Shown: positions 7,051-59,714 of the stretch, in pieces
Layout of the letters: the number at the start of each line of letters is the position of its first letter
Position numbering within the stretch: position 1 is the first letter of the stretch
NCBI GenBank assembly: GCA_021234155.1
Contig: JAJEKV010000051.1
Span: forward strand, 3,593,370 to 3,657,369
Direction: 5' to 3'
DNA from: Isoetes taiwanensis
Taxonomy: Eukaryota > Streptophyta > Lycopodiopsida > Isoetales > Isoetaceae
DNA: 64,000 bases
Translations under genes and position numbers: made by a program
The notes under the pieces: model-generated
What the model saw: only the letters and a program-made list of their open reading frames with translations
What the model was told of the DNA's origin: nothing
Databases searched by the model: none

Positions 7051-7054
7051 CCAA

Positions 7055-7705: not shown

Positions 7706-7771
7706 GTGTGCTTTATTTGTTCTCTCTTTACAATTTTTGTTCTGTGTGTTAGGGTTCAGTTTCAGGACGGG

Positions 7772-7975
7772 TATTAGAGTTAGAAACTGACCTAACCCTA
7801 ACCTATGACCTAACCCTAACCTATGACGTGGTGGCCCATCTATGCCATCTACTATATAGCTAGGCTTGTTCTCCTTTTTCGTTACTTCAATAGAGCGTCT
7901 TCTTCTCTTCTTCTTGTTTCACTTTCACACATATGCTGCTGACTCATCCTCATTGCTGACTGTACATAGTCTGAC
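7772..7975 (+). mobile_element. copia 3' LTR (end approximate)
   Basis: The sequence TATTAGAGTTAGAAAC starts right after the purine-rich CAGGACGGG and closely resembles the LTR start of the short element at 9381 and 11342 (TATTAGAAGTTAGAAC). A TATA-like CTATATAGC lies near 7851. The 3' end is uncertain; a CA end near 7975 is only a guess, and no partner LTR is seen. Confidence 0.55.
7791..7826 (+). repeat. 2 x 18-bp telomere-like unit in the LTR
   Basis: CCTAACCCTAACCTATGA occurs twice in perfect tandem (7791-7808, 7809-7826). Each unit contains two overlapping CCTAA motifs, resembling the complement of plant telomere repeats. It lies 19 bp inside the copia 3' LTR. Confidence 0.9.
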
Positions 7976-8469
7976 ATGTCGAATCTTATCTGTCATATGA
8001 TTGTAGTTACTATAAAGGGGCTGCCGCAGCCTCATTACTAGTTAGTTCACTTTCTTCTGCTTGCTCGTTTTTTTGTGTTTCCTTCTAGATCTTTAAGGAC
8101 TTTCATAGCTCTCTTATCACTTTACACCTGGAAATCCGGGTCAGCGATAACTTATAAATTTTAGCATTCTTTGTGGGACTGGCTGTCCCATGCGAGGAAG
8201 TAGTCCTCAGGGCCAAGTTTATAGACAGTTTTGGACTAGCTACTGAAACACATTGTGGAAATTTTCCAGTATATCTGCTTGAACCATTGTTGGCTCTTAA
8301 CAATTGGAAGTCTAATTTAGGCACATCTTTAGGTTGTTTGTACAATAGACTTTTCATTTGTTTTTAGAAATATTGTTTTCGCCATATTGAGCTATTGGAG
8401 CTTTTATGATTCTGTGTAGACTCTAAGTTCTGGACTTGATGACTACCCCCGAGCATCACATCCAAGCAT

Positions 8470-8940
8470 GGATGAACGCCATCTAGATTTGCGCTGCTGA
8501 TGGTTTTAGCTGCTAAATGTATGGATCTGATAGCTCAAATTGTGGAAGCTCCATCTGAAGTAAGCTGGCTTGGTTGATTCCAGTCTAATGAGCTCTTGCA
8601 ACTTGAAATTTATCTCATCAAGCAATGCCTCTTATCAGGTATATCAGAAAAACAGCGGAAATGCTTTCTGATATAAAGCTTCTGAATGAGGTAATTTTAA
8701 TTGCTTTTGTTTTGAATTGTATAGAGTTTTTTTTTTTCCCACTGTTACAGTTTTGAAAAATCCATTTGCCATTTCGTATTATTGTTAATCAATTCTCCTT
8801 ATTTTATCTGATAGTTACACTATGACCATTCGAGGGGGCATTATTATGACTACGGCAATCACACGGAAAAGGTTGGCATTCTATACTTCAGCCCACAATC
8901 CTTTCCGTTTAAAGGTTATGGATCTTTTTTGTAAATAAAG
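8470..8940 (+). other. possible exon fragments of an unidentified gene
   Basis: Three short open stretches have plausible splice borders: one ending ...EAPSE before GTAAGCTGG near 8562, one ending ...DIKLLNE before GTAATTTTA near 8692, and one beginning after TATCTGATAG near 8813 with L-H-Y-D-H-S-R-G and running to a TAA near 8936. Residue composition looks protein-like, but I do not recognise the family and the exons may belong to different sources. Confidence 0.22.
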
Positions 8941-9380
8941 GAAGAAAAATTTCAATTTAAAGTATTACATGGAAGCATAGTGCCCTACCAGTTTTCTCGA
9001 GGAAGGACTAATTTCCTGGCGTGACTAAAAGACCAGGCTTAGCTTTGCATCTTTGGAGGATGAGCTGGACCCTTTTTTGGATGATGGATTAATTTCCTGA
9101 CCTGATAAAGACCAGGCTACCATTTTTTTGATGATGGATTTGGCAGTAAGCCATTACTCAAAATTTCATATGCTGCATAATGTCAAAATTCATATACTTG
9201 CCTGAAGAAAGTGAAAAGACAAAGACGGTTAAGGTGAAAATGTTGGTTGAAATTTACAGTACAAAGGAAGTTACAATCCCATCACAAAATGTATCAACAG
9301 ACTGAAAGACTTCTAGAGAACTGTTCACCTTTCTAGTTAGGCCCAGATTCCACTACAGCAGAAGTCTGGACGCTTGTTGG

Positions 9381-9619
9381 TATTAGAAGTTAGAACCTAC
9401 ATATGTGACGGTCATGTACATACGATGTACATATGCTTACATGTACATTTGTACAGCAGCTAGTCTTCCTTATTCAGCCAGCCTGCTGACATGGCATTGC
9501 ATCCGACCGTTGAATGCTTGTATGGAGGGCTAGTTTTGATGCCTGCGTCACAAGGGGGGCTGAATAAGGAAGGTGTCCCCTTTCCTTGGTCTATCTCTCA
9601 TCGATCATTCATTCTAACA
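9381..9619 (+). mobile_element. 5' LTR of the short element (239 bp)
   Basis: It starts TATTAGAAG and ends ATTCTAACA, so the two ends form a near-perfect short inverted repeat. Its middle differs completely from the 3' LTR and contains a foldback insert (9465-9572). The outer segments match the 3' LTR with few changes. Confidence 0.88.
9465..9572. mobile_element. 108-bp foldback (MITE-like) insert in the 5' LTR
   Basis: CTTCCTTATTCAGCC at 9465-9479 is the exact reverse complement of GGCTGAATAAGGAAG at 9558-9572, enclosing 78 bp. This block is absent from the 3' LTR, which instead has ~65 bp of unrelated sequence at the same place, so the difference is a replacement rather than a clean insertion. 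Confidence 0.75.
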
Positions 9620-9631
9620 TGGTATCAGAGC
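9620..9631 (+). promoter_or_regulatory. primer-binding site (initiator tRNA-Met type)
   Basis: TGGTATCAGAGC directly abuts the CA end of the 5' LTR. This is the well-known plant copia primer-binding site that pairs with the 3' part of initiator tRNA-Met to start minus-strand cDNA synthesis. Confidence 0.92.
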
Positions 9632-9943
9632 TCCAGGATTGAGAGATGGACATTTCAGCTTTAGATGCTGGAGAGTCTGGCCCGAAGTTTTAGGGGTCTT
9701 GTTGTTCTTGGCCAGATGAAAGGGCAGTCTTCAGATCTTGTTAAAAACTGACTGTAAAATCTTGTAACGAAGGCAGATCTGTTGAAGGAGAGCTGTTTCC
9801 CAGTCTAATGTACTTTTAGTTGATATCTTGTCCAGGTTAGTCTGTATTATGGCAGATTCAAGAGGATGTGTCATAAATTTTGCTGCAAAGGGGAAAGCTA
9901 GGGTATAAATCCATGGATTTTAATTGGAACTACTTGCAAAAAT

Positions 9944-10036
9944 CAAGAGGAGGTCTGAATCTAGTGTGCAAGTAGGCCATCAATTGATCTCAAGAGGAGA
10001 TCTGGATTTGGTGTGCAGAGAGCCACTGGTTGATCT
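9944..10036 (+). repeat. tandem duplication of ~47 bp
   Basis: CAAGAGGAGGTCTGAATC... (9944-9990) is followed directly by a diverged copy starting CAAGAGGAGATCTGGATT (9991-10036). Both end TTGATCT. It lies in the interior of the short LTR element. Confidence 0.85.
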
Positions 10037-11341
10037 CAAGGAGCAATGCAAGAGGGCGAAGATTCGTGAAGGATTTTTCAAGTTTACCATCTGCGTGAGG
10101 GGAACAGGGAGTTGGAAGGAAGGATCTGTTGACGTGTTTGAGAATGGGGTAGATCGGACCAGAATCTTTTCGGTCGGATCTGCAATTGCGAGAAGAGCTG
10201 GATAAGACCAAAATTTCAGCTCCATAATTTGAAGACCGAATACTTTTGGTTGAACTATATTGTGCAGCGTGAGACCGGAAATATATGCTCCTTTTGGAGC
10301 TATTTTGGCCGGACGGGCTATTTTGTGGCTTTACTCGACAATATCGAACTGGAGTTTACATGCAATAAGGCATCAGATGGTTTTCTGCTGATGGCTCGAG
10401 AGCAGACCCTTAGATGACCTAGTAGCAGAGAGCCAATCTTGCCGATGTCTTTGCAAGGAGAGCTTACAATGTTTTGACGGTGACTGCTGCACTGGATATT
10501 GGCTGACCATTATAGTATCAGGGAAATATTCTGATTGGTTCAGTAGATCACTGATGCTAGAGTATGAGGGAGCTAGGCTGTAAGGATCTTGGTGCAAGAG
10601 GCAACCATTGACCTTCTCAAGGCAGAAATATTCAGGATCTAGTGATGTAGAGTATGGGTGAGTACTCTACGGAATTCAGTTGCAACAAAATCATCTTATT
10701 GGACGTCTTCCTAGCAGATTTGCAGATGAGTAATGATCTCCTGAGGTTATAGAACCTGGATTGTTTGTTACAGCAGGTTTTATTGGCAGAGTTTATGGCA
10801 AGGGAGAGCTGCCATGTAGTGAGGCATTCATATTCTGTTTTGGCCAGAAACGAATGCATGCAGCAATTTCAAAGCAGAAGGGGGAAAAGCTTAGAAATGC
10901 AACAACACTAGATTTGCTGATGGACCAGAGAATGCTGATGGGCCAGAGATTTAAGGGCATAGTAGCTGTGAGTTTAGAATAGTTCCTCGTTTTAATTGAT
11001 GAATTATGTTCAGAGCACGGGTGGCATTCATACTTTGTTATCAGGAATTCTTTAGGCAGCTCGTTTAGCTTCAAGTTTCTGAGTTGGCAAAATCTTGTTA
11101 AGGAAGTTCTATCATTATGTCAAACATCTGGTGCTACAGCGGGCGAAGAACAGGTGCTGCTTTGAAAAGTTGGAAATGGTTGCTTCAGAATGGTTCAGCA
11201 CGTAATCCCAGGGAGAGTTTGAACTTTAGAAGCATATGAAGTTTCACTCCAGGGAGAGCATATGGCGATATACTTTATGCAAACCTGAATTGAAGATGTA
11301 TATGTGGTGGTGGTAACTCACATATATAGGTTCAGGGAGAG

Positions 11342-30435: not shown

Positions 30436-30522
30436 ATTATGCCCAAAATCTAAGCATACCAAAGTGTAATTATAATGGCTAAGAGATAGCCATGGAAGCA
30501 ACCACCATCCATGGTATTCATA

Positions 30523-30830
30523 TTCACAATGAATATATTACATCAAGAGGCCCTTACAATCTATAAGGTACTCTAATTATTAGCCGGATAACTTTATTTA
30601 TACTTATTACTCCATATATCATAACCATCATAACTTATCATAAGTGTATTTGCAGTGGCTCGATACCATGTTCACAATAAATATATTACATCAAGAGGCC
30701 CTTACAATCTATAAAGGTACTCTAATTATTAGCTTGACTAACTTTATTTATACTTACTCCATATATCATAACCATCATAACTTATCATAAGCGTATTTGT
30801 ATTTAAAAAGGCAAGTGGCTCGATACCATG
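30523..30830. repeat. tandem duplication of ~148-160 bp
   Basis: 30523-30670 and 30671-30830 are near-identical, from TTCACAATRAATATATTACA to CGATACCATG. The second copy has a ~12-bp insertion near its end. Confidence 0.92.
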
Positions 30831-30965
30831 TTGGAGCTACTTACATTTGCATGTTGATGTTACATATATATGATATATATGTTGTGTATCATACACGTTG
30901 GACCCATGTGACCTATCGTCCACATGGGGTTAACAATGTTGTTCAACATCCTTAACCTCCAACTA
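30819..30965 (-). mobile_element. candidate LTR end with primer-binding site, minus strand
   Basis: On the minus strand CTCCAACA is followed by TGGTATCGAGCCAC (30832-30819), which resembles the copia TGGTATC-AGAGC primer-binding site. The putative LTR would run 30965-30831, with end motifs TTGGAG and CTCCAA. It contains TATATATGATATATATG. No partner LTR was found on the left, where the tandem duplication sits. Speculative. Confidence 0.35.
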
Positions 30966-31070
30966 AAGCATGCTTACCTTCACCATATCAGCTGGTTGGA
31001 TCACACAATTGGCTCCCATGCTAGAAAGGCCACCATTTACAAACAGACTTTATAGAGCTCAAACATCTTT

Positions 31071-31146
31071 AACAAAGTTTAAAATGAAGCACTTATTTCT
31101 TTGGGCGCACTTCAAAAGGAATCTTTGAAAGATTCTCTAAAATTCC
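31071..31146 (+). repeat. left terminal inverted repeat
   Basis: Reads AACAAAGTTTAAAATGAA, then GCACTTATTT, an 8-9 base spacer, GCGCACTTC, and TTTGAAAGATTCTCTAAAA. It is the inverted partner of 36262-36327. Confidence 0.75.
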
Positions 31147-31610
31147 TTAAAAAGTCCATTTTTAAGATTTTTTTTGTGACAGGTGTGACAATTTAGTTAA
31201 TTTAGGTACCTTTTTGAGGGGTTGATTGAACATAACTTCAGGTGCAAAAATTTCAAATAGCAATTTTTATCCTCCTATTTTAGAACAAAAATAGTTACTT
31301 ATGTAAAGTGTAGCAAAAAGGGCAAAAAAAAAAAATAGCAAGGGTAGTAGAGTGACAAAAAGTGATATATTCAAGGTTGTGAAAATTGTACAAAATTATG
31401 AACAAAATTGTCAAAATATAGGACATTTTGACGAGACAATCATCACTGCACTTTACGTTCTTTACATGTTTCGAGTCATCGAACAAACTTACATTTTGAC
31501 AAGATCGGGATGCATCTCATCCTCGACTCATTTATTCCACGATCACTTGAGCCTTCATCCTCGACTTCACTCTCAAAACTAGATGTGCGAGCGATCTTCT
31601 TCCTCTTTGT

Positions 31611-32882
31611 CTACAAGTGAGTCTTCATCATCATCTTTTTGGCCACCTTTTTGGCTTGTTTGTCTAATCCACATGCCAGAGCCTTATTAAAGTTTGAGTG
31701 ACCATCGTAACTTATTAGCGGCGGTCGAACAAAGTCATATGCAAGAACCTTTACTTGATTAGATCTATGGCAGCGATTGCTTGCTTTGGACTTAGCTCTC
31801 TTTCCCACTCTGTTTTTACCATCTCAAAGTATAACTCCCCTTTGAAAGCATTGGCGACAATCGTTCTCATCGATTGCACTTTTAATTGGTGGGAATTCCA
31901 TCTTCTCTTATTTACCTCGATTACTTTAGCTAGCCAAAATGGCCTCCCGGTTCATCATTATCATTTGGGAACAGCTATGAGCATTCCTTTTACGAATCTC
32001 GAGGCGAGAACCGGATACTCGAGCAACTTGTTGTCTTTGTGCGTCAGGGGCGGTGTACATGACTCTGTCATCTTCATCGAGCTAGCCAATATCTCTACAT
32101 GTTCCTCTTGATTCTCAACTTGCCGGGGAGAGTTTGCCTAGATGGCGAGTTGAATATGGCGGTCTTGACCTTGTAATGAAGCTTGCAACATGTCACGTTA
32201 GAGAAAAAATTGAGGCCACCATAAAGCATCTGCCTCCCCAAAGTGGTTAGGCGGGACTGAATACTTGTCTCAATATAATCCAATGATTTGTTTGAGTCAA
32301 ATGCTCTTCCCTCCTTTTTACTCTTTGTGATTTCTTTCAAGCTTTTTAGAGGCATTTGCTCTGCGAGAGAGAGCATGGAACTAGTATTGGGGATGGATGC
32401 GAATGAATTGAATATACCTTTGGCTGCTTACTTTGCAAAAGGATGTGGCATACTTCTTTCCTTGTAAGATGGCCTTGCCATCTACAAAGTGAAATTTTGA
32501 TCGATCTTTGCTGAAATGTAATGTTTCTCAAGGGCTCAATAGCACAGTGACCCAGTTGATCTCTCCGAAAAATCCATTCTTTGAAATCATAAGTTTCTTC
32601 CAATAACTCGATGTCTGGACGAGGATTGTAGAAATCTTGGATAACCTCAATCATTGCTGGTAGGCTGAGAGCTTTTTTTCGAGCAAGACGTTTAGAGAAC
32701 CTACTGAACATCTGATCAATTTGATCGTGTGTGTGACCAACAAGCAGGAAACCAATCTTCACCTTCTTGAAGATTTGTTTCTCTACTAGCATAGCACAGT
32801 AAGCAAACAACGCCTGATTCTTATTTTCCCTTGTCGTGTTGTCTAGCTGAAGATCTCCCACCAAAAAAAAGACTAGAACCAC
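31611..32882 (-). pseudogene. DUF7869-like (putative transposon-associated) protein, damaged
   Basis: The main open frame (32882-32346, 178 codons) contains L-Q-L-D-N-T-T-R-E-N-K-N, then F-A-Y-C-A-M-L-V-E, then F-L-L-V-G-H-T-H-D-Q-I-D-Q-M-F-S-R and L-P-A-M-I-E-V-I-Q, with Y-D-F-K-E-W after it. I remember this pattern from repetitive plant and oomycete proteins labelled DUF7869, whose D-N and H-T-H-D-D-I-D residues suggest a nuclease-like fold; that function is not established. Coding-like sequence continues to ~31611 after frame changes (M-P-L-K-S-L-K-E-I-T-K; N-K-R-R-W-N-S-H-Q-L-K; a basic C-terminus). The N-terminus is missing: the conserved part begins right at the boundary with the divergent plus-strand gene. 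Confidence 0.65.
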
Positions 32883-33708
32883 AAAGGCATTGACTATAGA
32901 GGAGTCAGCAGAAGCTCTTCAGAAGGCTCCGGGTGCAGATATTGTTGTGAAGCCCGTTGACAAGTCAAGTGCTATTCTAAAAAAGGTTAATGACACTAAA
33001 CTGCTTAAGCAAACAATTTCCTTGACATTAAGAGGCCGCCTAAAAATGAAGATGGGGTCAGAGTTCTTCAGGTACGAAAGCTGTACGCGGCACATGTGGC
33101 TATACTCAAGCAAAGAATGAGAAGGAATCCTCATGCCCATGTGTCGCCACTTGTTGTAATGGTTGGCGAAGTCGGTGCAACCAACTAAAAGATTATAAAA
33201 AGGCTAACTTTGAGGATTACACATATATTTTGTACTTGGAGGCACACATAGTTACAAAGCAAGGAAGGAACTTTCAAAGAAGAATCCGTACTTGAAGTTT
33301 GGAAGGCGTGAAGCACATATCTACGTTGGAGTCCGCAGACGAGGAAGCAAAGGTCATTCCGTGAGTCATAATCTCGACAATGACTTGAGACTAAAAATGA
33401 GTCTTATAGACAAGATCCGCTTCATGCAGGGAATACGTAGAGTTCAAGCAAGTGCATGGGGAGGACTTCAAAAACAAAAGAACAAGCTCCAAGAACCCGA
33501 GGAAGCTTGTGTCACAATCTTTGCCTCATTTCACGATTAGGATAAAAGCCCATAATGGTACGTGAAGCGGTACGACAATTACTTCGGCTTGCTTTCGGGA
33601 GATGGTCAAGTAAGTAAAAGCTTTAATTTGGTTATCTGTAGTATTCTTAGCATAGGCTGAGTTTGTATATTAACATCGAACTTTGTAAATCGTACCAAGG
33701 AAGACCGA

Positions 33709-33945
33709 CCACGGTATAAATTTATACCGTCGGTCCGCGATATAAATTTATCGTGATCGGACTACGGTATGGTATAAATTTATCACCGATCACCGAACGC
33801 GGTATAAATTTATCACGTGCACGGTCCGCAGATATAAAGTCATCACCGTTGCGGACGCGGTATAAAGTCATGGATTACCGGGAGCCGCGGTATAAATTTA
33901 TCACCGTGCACGGTCTGATATAAATTTATCTGTGCACGGTATTCC
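33709..33945 (+). repeat. array of eight TATAAATTTATC palindromes, ~30-bp period
   Basis: Eight units centred on GGTATAAATTTATCACC recur every 27-31 bp. The first is the perfect palindrome GGTATAAATTTATACC. Two units (near 33831 and 33859) have TATAAAGTCAT instead. The linkers are GC-rich (CGGTCCGCG, GTGCACGGT). The array lies after the GTAAGT donor at 33605 and before the next coding piece, so it is intronic in the gene model. Confidence 0.92.
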
Positions 33946-35024
33946 GATGTGCAATAATATAGTAACCTTGAGTAACCAGCGGCATTAGCGCCATTCAAAA
34001 CTAAAATACTTGTGTTCGATCGTCAGCGGTGTGGGATCTTCAAGAAAGAATATTTTTGTATGTTCGAAGATGGTGAAATTTGAAAAGAACAATCTAGCTC
34101 TATCGGAAAAAAACAAAAAAAAAGGTGGTGAGGCAAAACAAAAAACATGAGCATTGTACCACGGGCCTTGACTCTACGGGGTTTGAAAAACAAAGAAATT
34201 TTTGTAAGACTTCTAGAAAAAGTTGTGGCCAAAAGAATTTACTCTCTGCGTGAAATGGCCAAAAGAAGCTAAGGCGTAAGCCACCCTTTTATGTTGTGTT
34301 CTTTTTTTCTTAATTTTATCGATCCACAATTTTCCCTCTGCGATCGGAAAGACATTGTCACTGCCCGCGGAGAATTAATGAAACAACTTAACACGGAGAT
34401 TTGGGAGGAGTGCAAGACTTTATATCAACCTCTACTACGGATACTATTATCGAGAGAAACCTTGTTGTTAACCCGATTATTTGGGTAAGTTGTCTGAGAA
34501 AATACTTTTTGTTTTAGTGCCTTTGTCTCTGATTTTTTCTTGAGAATAAGAAGAAAAGGCCTACCAAGCGGGATTTTTAAACACTGGTTCGTAGGGCCAA
34601 GGAGGGAAGCGGTAGAAAGCAATTGAGCAAGGAAAGGCGGTCGACACTAGCGGCTTTGACACTACTTACGAGAGATTTACTACATTTGGTGGGGCGTCCG
34701 GTCTGGGGTTGTTGAGTTGCTGCCTGCGGTGGGGACTCTTTTAGACAAACAAAGCTTTCACGTTATGCATTGCGGATATTCCTTATGGCTTCAAAATCAA
34801 GGATAGCACTTTTTGGCGAGGCTTTTACTCACGTGCAAGTCCGTTCTTTTTTGGATGGCCTAAAAGAAGTCCGCGACATCGAAAGCGGAGGGTCATCATT
34901 TTTCATTCCGACTGGGGCGATGTCGGGTGCTAAAGCCATTGGGAGGCTATGCATGCATATAGCGGGCCCAGCTAGCGTATGGTAAGCTTTGAATTTCTTG
35001 CTTTTCTATTTACTTTAACACCAC

Positions 35025-35100
35025 GGTATAAATTTATACCTCTGCTGACCTCGTGGTATAAATTTATCTGACAAAAGGCAATGGTGGTATAAATTTATCG
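35025..35100 (+). repeat. second array of the same palindrome, three units
   Basis: GGTATAAATTTATACC (35025), GGTATAAATTTATCTG (35055) and GGTATAAATTTATCG (35086) lie about 30 bp apart. They again sit just after a GTAAGC donor (34982) in the split gene. Confidence 0.92.
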
Positions 35101-35837
35101 CCCAGCCACACCATAACTAACTTATTTTGTTCGTTTTCTTTACGCCAATGTTTAATTGCTTTTTTGTTTGGCGGGCTAAAAACAAATGTCAAAGGACATG
35201 GTGGTGGTCAGCGCTTAGTAAAATTTGCTTTGAACATTTCCATATTGGTTTTCTGGTAGCGGACACCAAAAAACCATGGTTCATTTCAACCACCTTGAGA
35301 ATGAAAAAGACTCCACCACTAGCGCTTTTCGGTTTCAGTTTGTTCTACAAAAATTGAGAGACCCACAGCGACAAGGGTATCGTATCTCATTATCGAAGCC
35401 CCAGTGGCTAATTAATAATTTAATTGATGGTTTTCGCCCGATTTGGATTCTAGATGCATTTTCGGGCTCGGGCACCCACGGCGGTTTGCGCCCTTAAGCA
35501 AAAAGGCGCAATGTTATCTCCGTCGACATACCCCGGGACAAAATAAGTTTCATCGGGGCGAGGATAAGCTCTTGTGAATCCTTTCACGATGAAAGCAGCC
35601 AGGAGCAAAAAGCGGTCTTTGGCGATGTGAAAGGCACATATCTGAAATCCGGCCTCCACTTACGGGAAGAAGAGATGAGGAGGTGGAGTTTGTCGATCTG
35701 GAACTGTGGTGCACGAGGCGAGAATCGGCGTACTGTACCATTGGAATCGGAAGGGGCGTCTACGCTATTATAACCTCGCCAAAAAGCCGGATCCTAAGGG
35801 GCACGAGAGTCACGTGAATTTGGGAAGAGCCACCTCT

Positions 35838-35851
35838 CGTATAAATTTATC
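35838..35851 (+). repeat. single outlying palindrome unit
   Basis: CGTATAAATTTATCTG lies ~20 bp after the last coding-like sequence of the split gene, separated from the other two arrays. Confidence 0.85.
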
Positions 35852-36261
35852 TGAGACCGGTATTTTAAATTAACTTTCATTGTAATCTATGTGCTAAGAA
35901 TTTTTATATATATTTTGATGAAGGTTTTCAAGCTGAAAACTTTGTCTCTTTAACAATGCTTAATTAGAACAATTCTTTTTTTTTGATTTATGATTTCACA
36001 CTCTTTCTCTTTTTCTATGTTTGATTTTCTTAGTACTTATATTAAGCTTGCAAAAAAAGACAAACTATATTTCCTTCTATTTTCAACAACAAATACTTAA
36101 TGAGTTTTTAAATTTAATGTCTCTCCTCAAAGCAAGCTTTCTTTTTTTTTTTTTTTTTAAAATGAAAAGGCTTCAAAAATGTTGCTTTTTGGGGTATTTT
36201 TGAATGCTATTTGCTCAACATTCTATTTTGCTCCCTATTTTGTCCATTTTTTTCAAGTTTC

Positions 36262-36327
36262 CAATTTTTAGAAAGGAATCTTTCAAACGCACTTCTTAAA
36301 TAAGTGCGTTTCATTTTAAACTCTGTT
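36262..36327 (-). repeat. right terminal inverted repeat
   Basis: Contains AACGCACTTCTTAAATAAG and the reverse complement of AACAGAGTTTAAAATGAAA. It is the inverted partner of 31071-31146, and also forms its own small hairpin (AACGCACTT with AAGTGCGTT). Confidence 0.75.
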
Positions 36328-36839
36328 CTTTTAAACCACGTTTGCCGGACATTCTGAGGGGGCCGACATTATTCACTTTGGTCCTCTTAAGCTGTGGAAA
36401 ACAAGCAAGAATGAGACAAAGAAAAAAAAAACCTAAAATGCTGGAAACAATTATATAAATGAAAGTGAAACGAACTTTGATCATCCCATCAATCCCTTTT
36501 CTTTTGTTCGCTATGTGCACCAGCAATCTCTCTTTTATAAAAACACAGATAACCTATGTCAAAACAGTCTGATAAACCTCATGGTTGGAATCTATTCAAC
36601 TATGTTGCTAAAATTCCTCCCTTACTTGCCCAACGTTGGCAGCCTTAAGATATATTGCCGGGAATAAGAAAGTGGGGAGTAACTTGTGGCATGTACCTGT
36701 GATCCTGCTTCCTGAATGTTAAAGCATCATTCACGGTGGCAATTCAAGAAATGCATCCACTACTTACATGGCAAAAATAAAGGTATCTTTGTTCCATCTC
36801 CCGCCTACTACTTCCAATGTATCATCGATTTTCGCCAAA
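36328..36839. other. non-coding spacer
   Basis: Spacer between the TIR element and the PPR pseudogene. Around 36840-36700 on the minus strand there may be decayed remnants of the PPR gene's last residues; nothing else is seen. Confidence 0.4.
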
Positions 36840-38657
36840 TCAATTTATCTTGACATCTGCCAAGTATAGCATAAGCGGTTGACAGCAATATAATAGCTGC
36901 ATCATTATAAGGATCAAGTTGAGTGCTTGTTCTGCAGCATGTTCTGCTATATTCACATTTACATGGAGTTTACATGCACCAAGAAGAGCTAACCATATCA
37001 TGCTACCAGGTTGAAATGGCATTGACATTATAAAATCTTCTGCTTCATCAAGCCAGCCTGCATTGCCCAAAACATCTACAATGCAAACATAATGGTGCTG
37101 TGGTGCTAGTGCAGTTCCAGAATTATGACTAAGCATAGTAAAATAGTGGCAGCCTTCCGTCATGCGGCCCACATGACTGCATACAGAAAGAACAGATACA
37201 AAGGTGACACTGTCTAGATTGAACCCACTTTGGTGCATTACGGGAAGGATACCAAACACTTCCATACCATCTCCATGCTGGGCATATCCAGCAATTAGTA
37301 TGTTCCACATGATGTCATTCTTTCTAGCAAACAGTTCAAAAACTTGGCACGCCGCTTCCATGTTACCACATTTGGCATACATATCAACAGTTGCACTTCC
37401 AACACTAATATCATTTCTGTAATTACTGTTTAGAATATATGAGTGAATTCTTCTTCCATCTTCCAAAGCTGCAGGTTTTGTACAAGCACCAAGAGCAGCC
37501 AAAAGAGTGACCTCATTTGGTAACTTTCCTTCACCACACATTGTCCAAAATAGCTTCACAGCTTCTTTACCATTACCATCACCAGCATATCCTGCAATCA
37601 TTGCACTCCATGGGACCACATCCAGCATCCTCATCCTGTCAAAGACATAAGCAGCATCCTTTATTTTATCACATTTTCACGTACATATCGACAAGGCACT
37701 GCCCACAAAGATGTCTTTATCTAAACCAAATTCTGCAGCAAGAGGTGAAAATATTTTCACTTTTCAAGCGATGTTGTCCTGGCACAGGCAGTTAGGCAAC
37801 TAATGAAGGTCACCTTGTCTGGTTTCATATGCTCCTCCTGGGATTGCTTAAAAGCCAAAGTGCTCCTTCATCATCACCATGTAGAACATGTCAGAAATAA
37901 ATGCATTCCATGTTGCAACATTTCTCCCCGAGCTTCTCTTAAAAACCTGAGAAGCTGCTTCTAGATTCCCACATTTGGCATACATGTCAATGAGCGTGCA
38001 CTCCCAGGGAATTATTTAAGCACTTGGATATAATTATACATCCATGTACCCATTTCCCATAATCCAGAAACGTCATTTTAGTAGATGCAGCAAGGATGCT
38101 AAAAAAGGTGACCACATCTGGCGTTATATGCCCCTGCTGCATGTGCATAAAAATTTGAAAGGCCTTCTTTCCATCGCCAAGTTGAGCATACCCTGCAATC
38201 ATTGTTGTCCATGAGACTTCATTGAGAACATGCATTATATTAAAAACCTTGCAACCATCTTCCAGCGATCCACATTTGATGTTGAGATCAATAAGCTTAC
38301 TGGCAATAAATGCATCCGAACTATATTGTGTCTTCATTATACATGCATGAACCTGCTTGTCCTGTGCAAGAATTCCTAGATCTGTAGAGGCATTGAGTAT
38401 GCAAATGAGAGTGACCTTATCTGGCCTTATTCCTTCCAGCTGCATTAGCCAAAATAGGCACAAATCTGGACACTATTGTTGCTAGGATTTCTACGTGGAT
38501 GATCAAACTGACCTTTGATTTTAGCAGAGCTGCGTGGTTTCGTATTTGAAATTGAATCCTCCAGGACTCCATCCCACCAACACCACCTATTTAATTCTGC
38601 TAAGCCTCCATTTACATATACCATACGTGCCCTTCTCAAGCATATGGTTGAAAACAC
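36840..38657 (-). pseudogene. PLS-class pentatricopeptide repeat (PPR-E) gene, broken
   Basis: Three minus-strand frames line up as one gene. 38657-38445 is a leader ending near N-S-V-Q-I-C-A. 38463-37987 has repeats including V-S-W-T-T-M-I-A-G-Y-A-Q-L-G and P-D-V-V-T-F. 37634-36840 has, in order: a P repeat (V-V-P-W-S-A-M-I-A-G-Y-A), an L repeat, an S repeat (M-Y-A-K-C-G-N-M-E-A-A), a P repeat (W-N-I-L-I-A-G-Y-A-Q-H-G), L2, S2 (G-W-L-D-E-A-E-D-F-I) and E1 (W-L-A-L-L-G-A-C-K). Between 37986 and 37635 PPR sequence is readable only in changing frames with stops. Such proteins bind organellar RNA, usually for C-to-U editing. No DYW domain is seen. Upstream starts and breaks mean no intact product. 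Confidence 0.9.
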
Positions 38658-50994: not shown

Positions 50995-51473
50995 TGTTAG
51001 TCCTGTGCCTCACAGTGCAGGACTATTCATCATCTGACGGACCAAGTCAAGTCAAGGATCCCTGACCCGACGCGGTCGGTCGTCAAAGGCCCGACAAAGA
51101 CCAAGCGGCGGACCACGTAGTCAAAGCCCAAGGCGGCTTCGGACAAGTAACGACCCGTCACACTTGCCAGCGTCGGCGTGATTCGAGCACTTCAAGAACG
51201 CCCGGCGTTCACCGCAAATCGAGAATCGGACAGAAATCGGTCGAGGAGTGTCTATATTGGGCCAAAGGCCATTGTACTATATATATGAGTAGAGCTAGCG
51301 CTCTAGTTTTTAGATGAGTTTTGAGTCTTGTCTCACATTGGTTTTCTCTCGATTGCGAGAGCTCATGTATCTTCATTGACATCAAGGAAGTTATTCTAAT
51401 TATTGTGATCTCAGTGTTCTCTTTTTGTCCCGTTCTCTTTTCCTTGTTCTTTTCTTGCAAATCCCGCGTGACA
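50995..51473 (+). mobile_element. Ty3/gypsy LTR, copy a (479 bp)
   Basis: It starts TGTTAGTCCTGTGCCTCACA and ends GCGTGACA. It is homologous along its length to 55793-56288. A TATA box candidate (TACTATATATATGAG) lies near 51274, with the leader and coding sequence downstream, so this is the 5' LTR of gypsy copy A. The exact 3' border is inferred from the TG...CA rule because the following leader is also shared. Confidence 0.82.
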
Positions 51474-51587
51474 CAGCTACCGGATCCTCCTGTTTGATCC
51501 ACGGGTCCTCACAGAGGGCTGTCTTGCAGGAGTTCGAACCGGACCCCAAACAACATGTCGCCCGTTCGGGTCTGATTCAAATTTCCT

Positions 51588-53530
51588 TTGATACATAGCC
51601 GCCATGCGCCGCGAAACTTCACTCGGAAGAACTTCTTTCCCGGGCGGCGTCTGCGGCAGGCGCCACCAGCGGCCGGGAAGTTGTTCGCGACATGTATGGA
51701 TCTGCTTATGACATTGAGGGAGGCCACATTCGGTCTAGGGCTCAGTCGGCGCCACCCATCCCTCGTGTCCTGTCTCGTCCCAGTTCCCCGCCTCAAGCGT
51801 GCAAACATTGCTCACAGCCTCAGTCACCTCATCACTATCAGAAGCTCTATCAGGCTCCGCCTTCTCAACCTTACTTTCATACCCCAGAGCATGCCTACAT
51901 CCATCATTCTTCTGGCCATACACCTCTGCCTTCACAACCATCATCTCCTCCGGGCGGACAAGGATATCCACATGTCTCTTTTGCTCCTCCCCAGGAATTT
52001 CCATTCCCTACATTTCCAACCGCAACCTTACCGACCTCAAAACCAATGATCAGGCACCTCCAGTACCTCCCCCTCAGGCACCCCTTCATCAGGGTCTTTC
52101 AGGCACCATGCCACCTCCCACTCCGCCTCAATATAATCCTTATCCAATTCCTGTACAACCAAGCACTTTCACCTCTACCTTTCAGACCCTTAAGGTGACT
52201 TATCAACCTTTGGCAACCACGAAGGCAAACCTTTAGACCAAAGTGCTCGGGCCCACATGGAAGAATTTGAGGCTCTGGCTGCCTGAATGGTCATGCACAA
52301 CCTCAACTGAAATTTCACATCTTTTCCACCACCTTTGCATGGCTCTCCTCATCAATGGCTCATGTCCAACAAAAGCCACTTTGGAAACAAGATTGGTCGA
52401 GGAAATGGCTGCTTTTCTTTCTCACTATGGAACCCACGGATGATGATCAACTTCATCTCAAGCAACTCAATGACCTTCAACAAGAGCCCACAGTCCGCCG
52501 GGGATTTTTTGAGACCGACTTCACATCTTGCTTTCGGCAAACTAAAGGAGTACCGAGCCGCAGGCGGATCTTGGTGCGGTTTCTCCAAGGACTTCCTCGG
52601 CTATCAGACTCATGGTGAATACTGGCCCGAAGACTTTGGGCGGGCTATCGACCTGTCAATCACTTTCGGTCAATGTTTCCTCCGTGGCGTGGCTCTTGGG
52701 GCTCCCTTTCATTCCACCGGTCATGGTTCCCGCAGGCTGGCTGTACAACCTCAACACACCAATCAGCGGTAGCGGTCGGATGCGGTGCCATATCGTAAAT
52801 ACCAAGGCCACTTGGCAAATGAGTGCAACTCCACCAGCGGCCCACCTCATTGTAAGCGATGCAACATGTGCAATCATGCCGCGGAAGAGTGCACTTTCGC
52901 ACTCACCCTACACCTTTCCCAACAAGATGGTTTATCAAGTGCAAACCACACCTCGGCAACAATCGACATATCGGCCGCAACAAGCTGCGGGCTCAACCCC
53001 ACTCAACCCTATCGGCAACCTCGGCAACAGCGGGGACCAAGCACTTTCGCCCCCTTTTTATCCTTCTAAAGCTCGGTGTTATCGCGTCGAGAATGGGGTC
53101 ATACCACCACCGCGGCATGTCCTTAACTTCCCACAAGTTCGGTGCGGCTTCACGGCACCAATCGGACCACATCGGTCCGCCTCACGACTTACCAACTACG
53201 GATTGCCAATGGCAAACAAGGCCAGCGTCCGGTTCCGGAAACCACCCGCGTGCCTCGGCAATCACGCTATCAACCAGCTCCTGCCAATCAACCTCGGATG
53301 GATCAACAAAACACGGAAAAAATTTTTCGGGCTCTTAATCCTCGATCACGGCCGATCAAATTGGGTTGGTTTGGTTTCCGCGCCCGGACCGGGGCGTCCG
53401 CCCCTTGACCATTATTCCTCATAGCCGCAACCTGCTTTTGCGGTCGACCACGATCCCTCATGAAGAGGAAAAAAGGTGCACTTGACTTGGAGAAACTCAT
53501 GCCTCATGTCATGCCTAAAAATGCGCCAAA
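51588..53530 (+). pseudogene. gag: gypsy gag, copy A
   Basis: The N-terminal part (51692-52236) is Pro/Ser/His-rich. The middle (52240-52780) has the gag-like E-E-F-E-A-L, then D-D-D-Q-L-H-L-K-Q-L-N-D-L in changing frames. Near 52845-52900 a perfect CX2CX4HX4C knuckle is readable (C-K-R-C-N-M-C-N-H-A-A-E-E-C), preceded by a degraded second knuckle (Y-Q-G-H-L-A-N-E-C). A long Gln/Pro/Arg-rich tail follows. Zinc knuckles bind the element RNA during packaging. At least five frame changes are needed. Confidence 0.8.
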
Positions 53531-53557
53531 GCATTACGAACCTCATGCAAGGCTGCT

Positions 53558-54380
53558 TTGAAGGCCACCCGTTTGGCTAATGTCCATGCCACCACCCGAG
53601 CTCAAGCGGCGTCAAGGCGCACCCTCCATCTCAACCTCCGCGGCTCTCGGACATATCCGAATATTCTTTGCGGAGGTGGAGCTCCTCAAAAAGTTCTTTG
53701 CTTCATTACCACGCCTCCGGCTCCGTGGATCGGCCAGATCCCTTTTCTCATGTGCCTCACGGAACTCCAAGGAGGGCTGGCAAAAATCAAAATTCCTTTA
53801 AGTTTGGCAACAATTTTGAAGCGTGTCCTGCTCTCAGGACCGGTTACCACTCAAACAGTTTTGGTTGGGGCCGTCGCTACCTCTACACCCGCGGTACATG
53901 CCACGGTGGGCAATCAACAAGTCAATCATGTTCAAATTGGCGGAGGTAAGCGGTATCAATCTCATCGGATAAACTCCAAGCAAATGGGCATCAAACAACT
54001 CTATGGTGCCCCATATGACATCAAATTGGTTAATGGCCATATCACCACGACCTCAAGGCGTCGCGCCTCTTCTTCACATCAACATTGGTGATCTCGATTT
54101 CCCTTAGAATTTGGTGTTTGGAATGTTGGTGGCCGGACCTTTTCTCTCAAACCGGGCCAAAAGTATCCATTCTTGGGCCCGCGGATCAGTTAGTCATCAC
54201 CGATGGTCACCTCAATGCCACTATAGACTTGGAAACCCGGCAAGATCATTTTGATTCGACCATCTTGAACCCTCTCTCTCCGACACCAAGATTACGGGGC
54301 CTTGAATATATCTATCATGTTCGGGGCTCCACTGCGGAGTGCGCCTCTGTCATCCTACCCGAATATCTTTGATCCTTGGG
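53558..54380 (+). pseudogene. gypsy protease region, copy A
   Basis: 53558-54091 is open and reads A-K-I-K-I-P-L-S-L-A-T-I-L-K, then A-V-A-T-S-T-P-A-V-H-A-T-V-G-N and V-N-H-V-Q-I-G-G-G. In copy B the last block reads V-Q-I-D-G-G-S-A-V-N-L-I, the aspartic protease active-site pattern; in copy A the aspartate and following residues are lost. The rest (54085-54380) is a decayed linker. Confidence 0.65.
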
Positions 54381-54840
54381 AGAAATGACTCTTGATCAAG
54401 ACCGGGCTGTGGTTGCTTTGCTTGACCCCTACGGCTCCTTGCAATCGCATCCAGCGTGTTGATCACTTTTCGGATCGCGGAACTTCCTCGATCTGTTGAT
54501 GTACCGCGTAATGAAGCAACCTGCAGCGATGACAATCGGCAACCTCTCTTCTTCACCCGCAGAGGCGCCACTCATCTGTCATGCTTCAACCTCCTGCTCA
54601 TATTGTTCAAGACGGAAGTTATCCCACATATTCGGACTCACGAGTAGAGATTGTGGGCGTTGGCAACAATCGGCCCGTCGCATTGCGCCAATCTTCCGAC
54701 ACCCTATCGTAAAAAGGCGATCCGCATTTGTTCAAAAGTTCAAACACATTTTTGCACGGAGCTCTGAGACCGCCGGGGATCAACAAAAACTTGGAGGGAA
54801 CTCACCATTCCTACCAAATCGGATGCGTCGTCTGTTTTTT

Positions 54841-55792
54841 TAGCGCCCGATGCAGAGCTCAACCCCAATTTACGTGATCAGCGTCAAGGCGAAATTGACA
54901 AACTCCTTGCTGCGGGTTTGATCTATGAGGTCAAACATGCGAATGGGTGAGCCCCATCGTCATTGCTCTCAAACACAATGGTAAGATCGGCGTTTGCGTG
55001 GACTACGAGGAAACTCAATCGGGCCGCGGGCGTGATCATTTTCCACTTCCCTTCACGGACTAGGTTACGGAAAGTCATTTGGACATGAGATGTACTCCTT
55101 CATGGATGGTTTTACGGCTACAATCGGATCTCAATCAAAGAATCTGATCAACTCAAGACTACTTTCACCACCCAGGTGGGGTACTTTTTGCCTACAAGGT
55201 GGTTCCTTTTGGATTATCAAACTCTCCCTCAACGTTTCAGCGCATCATGCTCTCGGTTTTTCATGATTTTATGAAGGAAAATCCCTTCCTACAAATTTTT
55301 CAAGATGACTTCTCGCCTCACGGTTCCATGGCTGACCATTTGGATAAATTGGAACTTCGTCTTTCGAGAAATGTGATGAGTCAGGCATTAGTCTCAATCG
55401 AGAAATGCACCTTCTGCGTCACCTCCGGTGTTGTTAGGACATGTTGTCGACAAAGCGGTATCACCCGCGGATCTGCCAAAATCGGTTATTGTGCTCAAAG
55501 CTCGCGCACCGGCCAATATCAAGGAGACCGCGCTCTTTCTGGGTAAGGTAAATTATTACTCCACCTTCATTTCTGGACTAGCGCCATTGCGGATCCCATC
55601 CATAAACTCGCGGGTGATGAATCCACGGGCTTGGAATTCCGGAATTTGCTTTCAACGGTTGAAGCTTTTGCTTACTTTCGGGCCGGTTCTTGTTCCTTCT
55701 CAATGGGACAAGCCCTTTCATGTACATGTTGATGTGTCGGCGTTTGCTATTGGGCTGTTCTTTCTCAAGAATATGATGCGCTGCCCGACAAA
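54841..55792 (+). pseudogene. gypsy RT and RNase H start, copy A
   Basis: Readable blocks: E-I-D-K-L-L-A-A-G-L-I-Y-E-V (about 54889-54935), F-Y-G-Y-N-R-I-S-I-K near 55105-55140, T-T-F-T-T, then V-P-F-G-L-S-N-S-P-S-T-F-Q-R (55200-55240), and the catalytic I-F-Q-D-D-F near 55295-55312. After a stop and frameshifts comes P-F-H-V-H-V-D-V-S-A-F-A-I-G (RNase H start, about 55710-55750). The sequence ends at 55792 against the next LTR. Confidence 0.85.
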
Positions 55793-56288
55793 TGTTAGTC
55801 TGTGCCTCACAGTACGGGGACTATTCATCATCGTCGGACCAGGTCAAGCTCAAAGATCCTCGATCAACCCGCGGGTCAGACATCAAGCCTCCCGCGAAGA
55901 CTAAGCGGCGAGCCCTTGATCAAAGCCTTTGGCGTCAAAAGCGCCCGCTCGGACAAGTAATGACCCGTCACCGCCAGCGTCGGCGTCGGCGTGATTCTAG
56001 AGCACTTCAAGAGCACCGCCAACATTCACCAAATCAGGCCTCCTTCGAGTCGACGCGAGAATCGGTCGGAGTGTCTATATTGGGCCCAAGGCCATTGTAC
56101 TATATATATGAGTAGAGTTAGCTCATAAGTTTTTAGATGAGTTTTTGAGTCTTGTCTCTTTTCGGTTTTCTCTCTATTGTGAGAGCTCATGTATTTTCAT
56201 CATTGATATCAAGGAAGCTTATCATCTTTCTCTCATTTGTTACGTTTCTCTTCTTTTCCTTCTCTTTTCAGCCAAATCCGGCGTGACA
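55793..56288 (+). mobile_element. Ty3/gypsy LTR, copy b (496 bp)
   Basis: It starts TGTTAGTCTGTGCCTCACAG and ends GCGTGACA. It matches LTR a with many small differences, so the two are not a freshly inserted identical pair. TATA candidate at 56098-56109. It is followed by a leader and gag matching those of copy A. Confidence 0.82.
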
Positions 56289-56399
56289 TAGTCCCCGGAC
56301 TCTCTGTTAGATCCACGGGTCCTCGGAGGAGCTGTCTTCGGGAGTTCGAACCCGGACCCCAAACAACGCGCGCTGCGGGTGCGATTTTCTCCTACTTTC

Positions 56400-58330
56400 T
56401 TACATGCGCCATAATGCGTAAAGTAATTTCCGCCCGAGGAAGAACTCCTTTCTCAGGCGGCATCTGCGGCTTGGGCGCCATCGGCGTCGGAAGCCCTGTT
56501 AGCGACATGTATGGATGCGCTTATGACATAGGGGAGGCCATCTTCGGTCTAGGGCTCGGTCAGCGCCACCCACCCCTCGTGTCGGTCTCGTCCGGTTCCG
56601 CCCCAAAGCGTGCAAACATTGCTCACAACCTCGGTCCCCTCATCACTATCGGGGCCTTATCGGCTCAACCTTCTCAACCGTACTTTCATACCCACGAACA
56701 TGCCTACATCCATCATTCTTGAGGGCCATACGCCTCTTCTTCGCCCAACCATCATCTCCCCAGGGTGGGCATGGCTATCCACATGTCTCCGCTGCGCCTG
56801 CCGGGAATATCCTTTCCCTCGTTTCCCCCTTTGCTCTTCTGTTTACAACCTTACGGATCTCAAAACCAATGCTCGGCTGCCGGTTTCTCACCCGCCCGTC
56901 ACCCCTTCATCGGTCCGTCGGGCACAATGCCAAATCCATCTCAACCTCAATATCCTCACTATCACGTTTCTGTCGGTGACACTTTCACATCTACCTTTCG
57001 GACTTTGAGGCCGACTTATCCCACCTTTGGCAACCACGAAGGCAAGAATTTCGACCAAAGTGCTCAGGCCCACATGGAAGAATTTGAGGCTCTAGCTGTC
57101 CTAAATGGGCGCAGCGCAACCTCAAGCGAAATTTCACATCTTTTCCACCACAACTGCGTGGCTCTCACCGTCAATGGCTCATGTCAACAAAAGCCATTGG
57201 AAACAAGGCTGGTGGAAATGAAATGCGCCTTTGCTTTTTCTCTCTCATTCTGGGACCCCGGATGATGATCAACTTCATCTCAAGCAACTCAATGAACTTC
57301 AACAAGAGCCCGCAGTGCAGGGATTTTTCGCGGATCGACTTTCACGATACGCTAAGCAAGCTCAAAGGGTACCCTACCGAGCCAGTTTTTGGTGCGGTTT
57401 CTCCAAGGACTTCCTCACGCTATTCGACTCATGGTGAATACTGCGTCCAAAAACTTTTGGAGCGGGCTATCGTTCTGTCAATCACTTTCGTCAATGTTTC
57501 CTCGGCGTGGCTCTTCAAGAACTCCGTTCATTCCACCCGTCATGGTTCCACAAGCGGTACATTGACCTCAACAAGCTAATCCCAGTAGCGATCAAATCGG
57601 TGCCATATTTGCAAATATCAAGGCCATTTGGCCAATGGTGCAACTCCACCAATGGCCGCCTCATTGCAGCGATGCAACATGTGCAATCATGCCGCGGAAG
57701 AGTGCACTTTCGCACTCATCCCCCACCGTTCGCCAACAAAATGGTTTATCAGGGTGCAAACCACACCTCGACCACAATGCGCTTTCTCGGTGACCACCTC
57801 TTGGTGCGGCCCGCGCAACTCTATCGACCGCGGGACCAACCACGGGGATCCAACCAGCGTCCTCCTTTTGATCCTTCTAAAGCTCGGTGCTATCAGCTGT
57901 CAGAATGGGGTCATACCACCCGCGGCGTGTCCTCAACTTCCACAAGTTGAGGTCCGCTTCACGGCACAAATCGGACCACATCGGTCCGCCTCACGGCTTA
58001 CCAACTCGGCTTGCTAATGGCAAACAAGGCCGCGACCAGTTCTCAAAGAAGCCCCAAGGCGCCTCGGCAATCCGCGCTATCAACCAGCTCCGACCAAATC
58101 AACCTCGAAATTTGGATCAACAAGCCCAAGAGGAAATTTTTCGGGCACTTAATCCTCCGTCACGGTAGTCAAATTGGGTTGGTCTAGTTTCACGCCCGGA
58201 CCAAGGCATCCGTCCCTTGACTATTATTGGAAGGACCGCCTTTGCGCTTTGCGGTTGACACCCTTCCTCATGAGGGGCGAAAAAAGGTTCACTTTGCACG
58301 ACTTAGAAAAGCTCATGCCAAATGTCATGC
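56400..58330 (+). pseudogene. gag: gypsy gag, copy B
   Basis: It parallels copy A: start M-Y-G-x-A-Y-D-I near 56508, Pro/Ser-rich region to 57005, E-E-F-E-A-L (57076-57095), D-D-D-Q-L-H-L-K-Q-L-N-E-L near 57263-57300, then the zinc knuckle remnant C-N-M-C-N-H-A-A-E-E-C near 57671-57704, and a Gln/Arg-rich tail. Numerous frameshifts. Confidence 0.78.
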
Positions 58331-58391
58331 CCAAAGTTAGCCAAAGCATTTTGAATCTCATGCAAGGCTGGCGAAGGCCGCACATTGGCAA

Positions 58392-58960
58392 ATGTTCATC
58401 ACCACCACTAGAGCTCAACAAAGACAAGATACACCTTCCACATCTCAACCTCCGCGCTCTCGGACATATCCCAATATTGCGGTAGGGTTGACTTACTCAA
58501 AAAAGTTCTTTGCTTCCACCCCGCGCACTCAGCACCAGTGGAACCGGCCGAGATCCTTTTTCTCATGTACCTCTCGAACTCCAAGAGGAGCTTGCCAAGA
58601 TCAAAATTCCTTTAAGCTTGGCTACCATTTTAAAACTTCGTCACGCTCTCAAGGACCGGTTACCACTCCCAAGCTGTTTTAGTTGGGGGTGGCTACCTCT
58701 ACACCCACGGTCCATACAGCGGTGGGAAATCGACAAGTCAACCATGTTCAAATCGATGGAGGTAGTGCGGTCAATCTCATCGCGGATAAACTCCGCCAAA
58801 CAAATGGGCATCACACAACTCTTTCGGTGCCCCATATGACATCAAATTGGCAAATGGCCATATCCACGAGACCTCAAAGGCGTCACACCTATTCTTCACA
58901 TCAACATTGGTGATCTCTGCTTTCCCATGGAATTTGGAGTTTGGAAAGCTGGCGAAGATC
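58392..58960 (+). pseudogene. gypsy aspartic protease region, copy B
   Basis: A-K-I-K-I-P-L-S-L-A-T-I-L (58593-58631) leads to G-V-A-T-S-T-P-T-V-H-T-A-V-G-N and then V-Q-I-D-G-G-S-A-V-N-L-I-A-D-K-L (from about 58749), the retropepsin active-site turn (D-G/S-G-type). Retropepsin would process the polyprotein. The frame breaks after K-L-R-Q, then continues Y-D-I-K-L-A-N-G-H. Confidence 0.72.
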
Positions 58961-59714
58961 CGGTGACTATGAAATCTTTGGTGGGAAGACCCTTTCTCCG
59001 CCGGGGCAAAAGTATCCACTCTTGGGCCACGGACCCGGTTAGTCATCCACCGAGACGGTCATCTCAATGCCACCATGGACTTGCAAGCGAGGCGGGATCA
59101 TTTACGTTGACAATCACGGAACCCTCTCTCGGACGATTCTGAAGGCGCGGAGAATATTTATCGCGTTGAGGGCTCCCCCTGGCGTGCGCCTCTGTCATCC
59201 TACCCAGAATATCGCGATCTTGGGAGAAATGACTCTTGTCCGGGGACCGGTGTGGCTGCCTTGCTTGACCCTACGGCTCCTTGCAATCGAATCAATCGTA
59301 GATCACTTTTGGGATGACACTTACGCAACTCTGTTGATGTACCGCGCCGTCATGAAGCAACCAGCGCTAGATGACAGCGAGCAACCTCTCTTTTTCACTT
59401 CGCGCGATTACCCGCGCATCGGTTATGCTCAACCTCACGCACACATTGTCAGGGATCTTTTGAAGTCATACCTCATATTCGGACTCGAAGTCGAGAAATG
59501 CGTGGATGTTGGCAACAATCAACTGTCGCCTTAGCTGCGGACCTTCCGGCTCCTTATCGTCCACGGGGCCGTCCATGGCTGTTCAAAAAATTCAAACACA
59601 TTTTCGCTGGAGTTACAAAGATCTTGGGGGGAATCAACAAAAGCTTGGGGGAACTCACCATTCCTACCAAATCGATGCCGCGACCCGGTATAGCAGCGGC
59701 GATGCGGGCTCAAC

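Follow-up and report, generated by a model that had tools for sequence, protein, structure and literature searches.

A window of 64,000 nucleotides from the genome of Isoetes taiwanensis (contig JAJEKV010000051.1, positions 3,593,370 to 3,657,369; "the window" denotes this whole stretch) contained, at positions 31071 to 36327, a decayed, internally deleted member of a repeated DNA transposon family. Related copies in the same genome carried two divergent genes, one matching DUF7869 and predicted to encode the probable transposase, and one whose last exons were annotated as a beta-class amino-methyltransferase. We lean, by a modest distance past even, toward a multicopy transposon in which DUF7869 would be the transposase and the methyltransferase encoded by the second gene, guided by an upstream domain, would mark element DNA at palindromes and help the element to persist. 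In its present state the window copy cannot function, as the N-terminal half of its transposase gene is gone and its methyltransferase frames contain stops and frameshifts. The outline of this copy was as follows.

31071..36327, no strand: internally deleted DNA transposon copy, 5257 bp (ends as in relatives, plus colinear blocks)
31067..31070, no strand: left copy of the target-site duplication, 4 bp, CTTT (flank comparison)
36328..36331, no strand: right copy of the target-site duplication, 4 bp, CTTT (flank comparison)
31071..31098, plus strand: left terminal inverted repeat core (90% over 30 columns)
36298..36327, minus strand: right terminal inverted repeat core (90% over 30 columns)
32854..32855, no strand: deletion junction, approximately 3.4 kb lost relative to full-length copies (alignment to relatives)

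The terminal inverted repeats were approximately 30 bp long (AACARRGTTTAAAATGAAAC). With the inner block included, the 80-bp ends aligned with a score of 68.5, which was reached by 0 of 4797 random composition-matched pairs (best, 60.5). An earlier note on this DNA had described imperfect repeats of about 70 bp; the inverted match of the ends was real, but it comprised a repeat of about 30 bp and a ragged inner block rather than a clean 70 bp. Compared to full-length copies, the deletion of approximately 3.4 kb took away the N-terminal half of the DUF7869 gene. Target-site duplications of 4 bp are a trait of the Sola superfamily, which the element matches in duplication length. A fit to hAT-like ends (8-bp duplications and CARAG ends, with 2 mismatches in the window) was dropped; other copies have exact 4-bp duplications two bases further out.

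The genome of the window (1,658,258,908 bases in 1110 contigs) was searched with the left 130 bases of the element. This produced 948 first-look candidates, of which 40 were scored (90 to 100% identical), and the sample examined comprised 25 copies, namely, that in the window and 24 fetched out of the 39 other scored matches. The left end was present in all 25 copies and the DUF7869 core in 24 (all except L051), and both methyltransferase motif regions were found in 16; the query proteins for gene content were taken from L031, L036, and L041, which match by construction. Both ends were found in 12 copies, and every one of these had the DUF7869 core together with the two methyltransferase motif regions, arranged divergently and in an unchanged order. 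Eight of these were full length (L027, L029, L031, L036, L039, L040, L041, and L045; 8490 to 8772 bp), and the other four were 5257 to 7187 bp in length. The first or middle domain of the methyltransferase gene was missing in some two-ended copies (L028, L034, L043, and the window). Perfect 4-bp target duplications bordered 11 of the 12 two-ended copies (the exception was L031), although two of the 11 probably represented one insertion; L034 (G000:C915:847600-857300) duplicated window positions 30613 to 36827 with both flanks, was 87% identical, and shared both the deletion and the CTTT duplication, and the two look like a single insertion seen twice through segmental duplication.

Because all 12 two-ended copies carried both genes and 11 had perfect duplications, the family represents one mobile element rather than two unrelated inverted repeats. 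The fragmentary state of the window copy, taken alone, would also fit two unrelated inverted-repeat insertions that flank old gene fragments by chance, an account that the other copies refuted and to which we attach next to no probability. Two claims of the earlier note thus held, namely, that the inverted repeats enclose two divergent genes and that a mobile DNA element carries a methyltransferase beside the DUF7869 gene, with the gene pair, the ends, and the 4-bp duplications all recurring and the role of transposase being the inferred part. That note had also named repeat copies without the genes as the sign of unrelated ends; the methyltransferase was indeed not found in 9 of the 25 copies, but a right end was found in none of these 9 within the fetched 9.6 to 9.7 kb, so that truncation, interruption, or the limits of the fetched stretch may account for the absence. 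In every one of the 28 pairs that the eight full copies form, identity was higher in the left 3 kb than in the right half (means, 91.8% versus 78.7%); choosing copies by their left 130 bases favored alike left halves in this comparison. A left 3 kb so alike beside a divergent right half suggests that subfamilies may exchange the methyltransferase half. Separately, L048 (G000:C1018:20481000-20490700) was a rearranged copy, with one DUF7869 N-terminal match on the strand opposite to the rest of the gene.

The methyltransferase gene of the window was reduced to three remnants.

32935..33609, plus strand: middle-exon remnant, ParB-like by eye, ends approximate; donor-like GTAAGT at 33610; relatives in probable fern loci
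34646..34981, plus strand: exon remnant with motif IV (ADIPYGF), start approximate; donor-like GTAAG at 34982
35234..35660, plus strand: exon remnant with KP..L, motif I (DAFSGSGT), and the following strand, frameshifted, ends approximate; a less decayed relative matches N6_N4_Mtase with an E value of 2e-15

In less decayed copies, the exons of the plus-strand gene METHYLTRANSFERASE read like GDCTRLGTLLDKQNFTLCIADIPYGF, followed downstream by HYQKPQRLINNLIQWFSRPGDWILDAFSGSGTTAVCALKQGRNVVSVDID, and the D-I-P-Y-G piece read GDC..L......FTLCIADIPYGF. The sequences ADIPYGF and then DAFSGSGTT could be read directly in L031, L040, L041, and L045, and motif IV preceded motif I in all 15 copies with listed positions. 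Positions 8027 to 8890 of L041 matched Pfam N6_N4_Mtase (PF01555; E = 2e-15; 57.8 bits, with a cutoff of 26.7). Among solved structures, the best matches of a sister copy were MboIIA (3.5e-8), CcrM (8.7e-8), two further methyltransferases, and RsrI (1.4e-6), and cytosine-N4 enzymes ranked far lower (0.028 to 0.061); this ranking favors adenine over cytosine N4 as the predicted target base, short of proof. The last exons of the plus-strand gene were firmly assigned, in the sister copy, as a predicted beta-class amino-methyltransferase. The bacterial beta-class enzymes MboIIA, CcrM, and RsrI likewise have motif IV followed by motif I, the KP..L sequence, and the D.F.GSGT block, whereas the gene of the element differs from them in its probable eukaryotic exons, its D-I-P-Y motif IV, its two upstream domains, and its location in a transposon. 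The beta-class assignment that the earlier note had drawn from motif order in the window was borne out in the relatives by motif order, the Pfam match, and the structure matches, and the consensus lacking both motifs that it had raised as the contrary outcome did not occur in the relatives.

The window remnants themselves gave weaker matches. A motif-I profile was built here from 10 beta-class methyltransferases, and the DAFSGSGT frame was the best match to it in the window (E = 5.7e-4; 16.1 bits; best of 60 shuffled windows, 11.5), with a frameshift-tolerant score of 24.95 (maximum in 100 shuffles, 18.5); the two starting sequences of the profile were weak matches to the window frame, which biases these scores in its favor, and independent support comes from the sister copies. 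The decayed window methyltransferase frames had no significant match in Pfam, PHROGs, or NCBIfam (best in NCBIfam, CcrM at 0.033, followed by an adenine enzyme at 0.12), and the window's own frames fell short of the PF01555 family cutoff. A read-through of the window with frames picked by eye matched N6_N4_Mtase with an E value of 1.4e-5, just under the curated score; selecting the frames in this way favors such a match, and we place no weight on it. A motif-IV profile derived from phage-type enzymes failed to detect the D-I-P-Y-G piece.

Donor-like GTAAG or GTGAG followed the first and middle exons in four of four copies listed and the motif-IV exon in two of two; therefore, the methyltransferase gene probably contains introns. 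Two conserved domains were found upstream of the methyltransferase exons. The first, labeled BAH-like, gave only a weak hSH3 match in a profile search (E = 0.0078). The middle domain is putatively ParB-like by its pattern (GG.H....A, DEEA, and HN), although no ParB family matched.

The minus-strand gene was represented in the window by the following remnant.

31688..32852, minus strand: remnant of the DUF7869 gene (probable transposase), core at 32511-32852, C-terminal part at approximately 31688-31987, N-terminal half missing (Pfam; tblastn with an intact 914-residue relative)

The frame that the earlier note had called DUF7869-like did match Pfam DUF7869 (E = 1.7e-37). In the DUF7869 protein of L001, one of the probable fern loci described below, the acidic motifs DG.D, LDN, and H..ID were recognized by eye. 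Position in the element, conservation, and motif pattern indicate that DUF7869 is probably a DDD/E-type cut-and-paste transposase. This domain, named for its lack of a known function, would gain a probable role. No publications on DUF7869 were found in the open-licence literature.

Selection on both genes was estimated as the ratio of nonsynonymous to synonymous substitution rates (dN/dS) by a nucleotide-guided codon comparison from which gapped and stop codons were dropped. In the most divergent third of pairs, dN/dS was 0.13 for the motif-I exon, 0.13 for the motif-IV exon, 0.04 for the middle domain, and 0.14 for the first (N-terminal) domain, and for DUF7869 it was 0.22 in the core and 0.28 and 0.34 in other parts; these values may lean low as unalignable stretches fall out, and the pairs share copies and hence are not independent. 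In the closest third of pairs, dN/dS was 0.29 to 0.89. Low ratios in divergent pairs and higher ones in close pairs are as expected if selection acted between active lineages and was followed by decay after insertion. By this codon comparison, both genes were shown to be under purifying selection, and the value of approximately 0.13 between the most divergent copies indicates that the methyltransferase gene was maintained.

A probable second plant carried the same pair of genes. A scan of bacterial genomes gave one DUF7869 relative, an intact 914-residue frame on a contig binned with an uncultured Trichormus metagenome-assembled genome. Because Trichormus azollae is the symbiont of the water fern Azolla, the contig was taken as probable fern DNA, and the apparent plant transposon contigs in this cyanobacterial bin (G001) are probably Azolla host DNA. 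The bin contained DUF7869 on eight contigs and the methyltransferase on seven, these contigs being short, so that absence elsewhere says little. Both genes were present on three contigs (C142, C204, and C433), divergent each time, and matches to the ParB-like domain, motif IV, and motif I occurred in order at five of five probable fern loci. Seven open DUF7869 frames of 873 to 924 amino acids were found in the bin; L057 combined a DUF7869 frame of 888 residues with a plus-strand frame of 566 residues. No element ends were found for L057, and a local inverted-repeat alignment of a probable fern contig gave merely a diffuse alignment across AT-rich DNA. An intact DUF7869 gene in L001 had upstream of it, at the contig edge (positions 1 to 157), a tandem array of three identical units of 51 bp. 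Every unit contained a palindrome around CCGATGCA-G-TGCATCGG, which differs from the Isoetes palindrome described below.

The divergent pairing in a probable second plant, together with dN/dS of approximately 0.13 between the most divergent copies, argues against the methyltransferase being passive cargo, that is, a host or bacterial gene picked up by chance and now decaying. The broken window copy would suit such an origin, as would the several copies that match the methyltransferase queries at just 40 to 60% identity, as decay would give; we disfavor it and regard it as very improbable.

The candidate target of the enzyme was a palindrome arrayed in noncoding parts of the element, which a motif scan placed in the window as follows.

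33713..33930, no strand: palindrome array, family consensus CGGTATAAATTTATACCG, noncoding
35025..35099, no strand: palindrome array in the inferred intron between the motif IV exon and the motif I exon
35838..35851, no strand: single palindrome 3' of the methyltransferase gene

Across the eight full-length elements, ATAAATTTAT (consensus, CGGTATAAATTTATACCG) occurred in 200 copies, 19 to 34 in each, with shuffle means of at most 0.03. Their positions were intergenic, within inferred introns, or on the 3' side of the methyltransferase gene; neither the left 3.4 kb of any full copy nor any of the seven coding-match segments contained one. All 12 palindrome matches in the window (2 or fewer mismatches) were inside the element. 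The rightmost palindrome was approximately 0.5 kb from the right end in L041 and L045.

Under the preferred reading, the DUF7869 protein would cut and paste the element, and the second protein, guided by its upstream domain, would bind the palindrome arrays and methylate adenine (less likely cytosine N4) on element DNA. The resulting mark would aid the persistence of the element, most likely because the element would stay active in the face of host silencing. As we read it, the function of this candidate mark at its candidate target could be either escape from silencing or control of transposition. A more specific proposal, offered tentatively and well short of an even chance, concerns a plant DNA transposon family shared by a lycophyte and a fern. 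The N6-adenine methyltransferase of this family would be sequence guided and would write a bacterial-type mark on the palindrome arrays of the element itself, either as a defense against silencing or as a means of distinguishing element copies from the DNA of the host.

Control of transposition, not silencing, would have methylated ends or internal sites gate the binding of the transposase or time excision to replication. The enzyme does share the element with the probable transposase, the two being conserved together, and bacterial precedent exists in the Dam control of Tn10 and IS10. The palindromes, however, are the sole obvious candidate target and lie away from the ends, being absent from the left 3.4 kb of the full copies and stopping approximately 0.5 kb from the right end in L041 and L045, and we consider such control unlikely, though a serious contender.

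Several results weigh against the preferred reading, in which the methyltransferase marks the element at its palindromes. The palindrome was absent from all six probable fern loci scanned, and positions 6135-10300 of the longest of these had no repeated 10-bp palindrome; the two explanations are that the motif turns over and that the enzyme has no connection with it. A TATAAA-type sequence lies within the palindrome and could be promoter-like. Both points would fit palindromes that serve as promoters, enhancers, or binding sites of the transposase, or that are neutral minisatellites of introns, in each case unconnected to the methyltransferase. Against this, copies with as little as 66% identity in their methyltransferase halves share the noncoding locations of the palindromes, both intergenic and within inferred introns, and the transposase half has none. 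This unlinked origin, which is a subquestion compatible with the other readings, falls only somewhat short of an even chance. The middle domain, assumed to be ParB-like, matched no significant Pfam family and no ParB family (DUF6551 was below the cutoff; E = 0.02 and 0.076). DUF7869 had no significant match among solved structures. In 12 Isoetes copies, minus-strand frames listed at 130 amino acids or more reached at most 428 amino acids, and therefore no working copy was seen among them. A cruder protein-guided alignment gave dN/dS of 0.39 for both methyltransferase exons in the divergent half of pairs and all-pair medians of 0.34 to 0.63; its matches ran across frameshifts, and it was superseded by the nucleotide-guided version.

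Of known systems, the closest working model for the preferred reading is VANC of the Arabidopsis transposon VANDAL21 (Hiun), by analogy in layout and targeting, not in family. VANC causes loss of DNA methylation and binds short motif copies that are arrayed through noncoding DNA of the very element that encodes it (PMC5735166). VANDAL21 resembles the present element as a plant DNA transposon with a second protein and a short motif arrayed in its own noncoding regions and introns; the motif is rare in other elements, and its arrays are tandem and vary between copies, a further common feature (PMC5735166). The two differ in that VANC strips methylation and its binding has been shown, whereas the present element combines a predicted beta-class methyltransferase and a palindromic motif with a probable transposase of the DUF7869 family. 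Fungal DNA transposons carry genes for TET/JBP dioxygenases, which oxidize 5-methylcytosine and were proposed to counter silencing (PMC12730594). These also place a DNA-modification enzyme gene beside a transposase, but TET/JBP enzymes oxidize 5-methylcytosine, whereas the amino-methyltransferase here would add a mark (PMC12730594). Dinoflagellate and charophyte retrotransposons encode C5 cytosine methyltransferases (PMC5890265). They too are eukaryotic mobile elements with their own DNA methyltransferase, although theirs are 5-methylcytosine enzymes of retrotransposons and the present one is an N6/N4-type amino-methyltransferase of a DNA transposon (PMC5890265).

Known mobile elements with DNA-modifying enzymes thus include retrotransposons that encode 5-methylcytosine writers and fungal DNA transposons that encode erasers of that base. 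With a selected, conserved amino-methyltransferase in a plant DNA transposon, these examples would be joined by one with a different mark, together with a candidate target motif. Among the matches listed in the open-licence literature, no publication described an amino-methyltransferase inside a eukaryotic DNA transposon. Amino-methyltransferases have been reported in eukaryotes, and the present family is a possible concrete source of N6-methyladenine, a mark readable in native long reads, in seed-free plants. If the more specific proposal above is true, land plants would have a transposon-borne enzyme that writes a second DNA mark, and its target motif would coevolve with it. Plant mobile elements may write chemical DNA marks for their own benefit.

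Relatives among viruses were absent or distant. DUF7869 queries had no relative in IMG/VR or among phage records, and the middle domain had no match among phage records. The conserved methyltransferase exon matched 1891 phage records, the best ranked being 48% identical over 62 residues (E = 2e-9), and in IMG/VR it had just two distant viral relatives (37% and 28% identity); the read-through window piece had none there. With DUF7869 lacking viral relatives and the exon matches distant, no recent phage origin was seen, and this candidate was rejected.

Other features of the window lay outside the element. A 147-bp tandem repeat (1.9 copies; 30519-30832) was immediately to its left, and minus-strand frames beside it at 36840-38463 resembled, by eye, a decayed pentatricopeptide-repeat gene. 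Positions 50995-60633 contained two head-to-tail blocks of approximately 4.8 kb that were 78% identical and looked retrotransposon-like by frame content.

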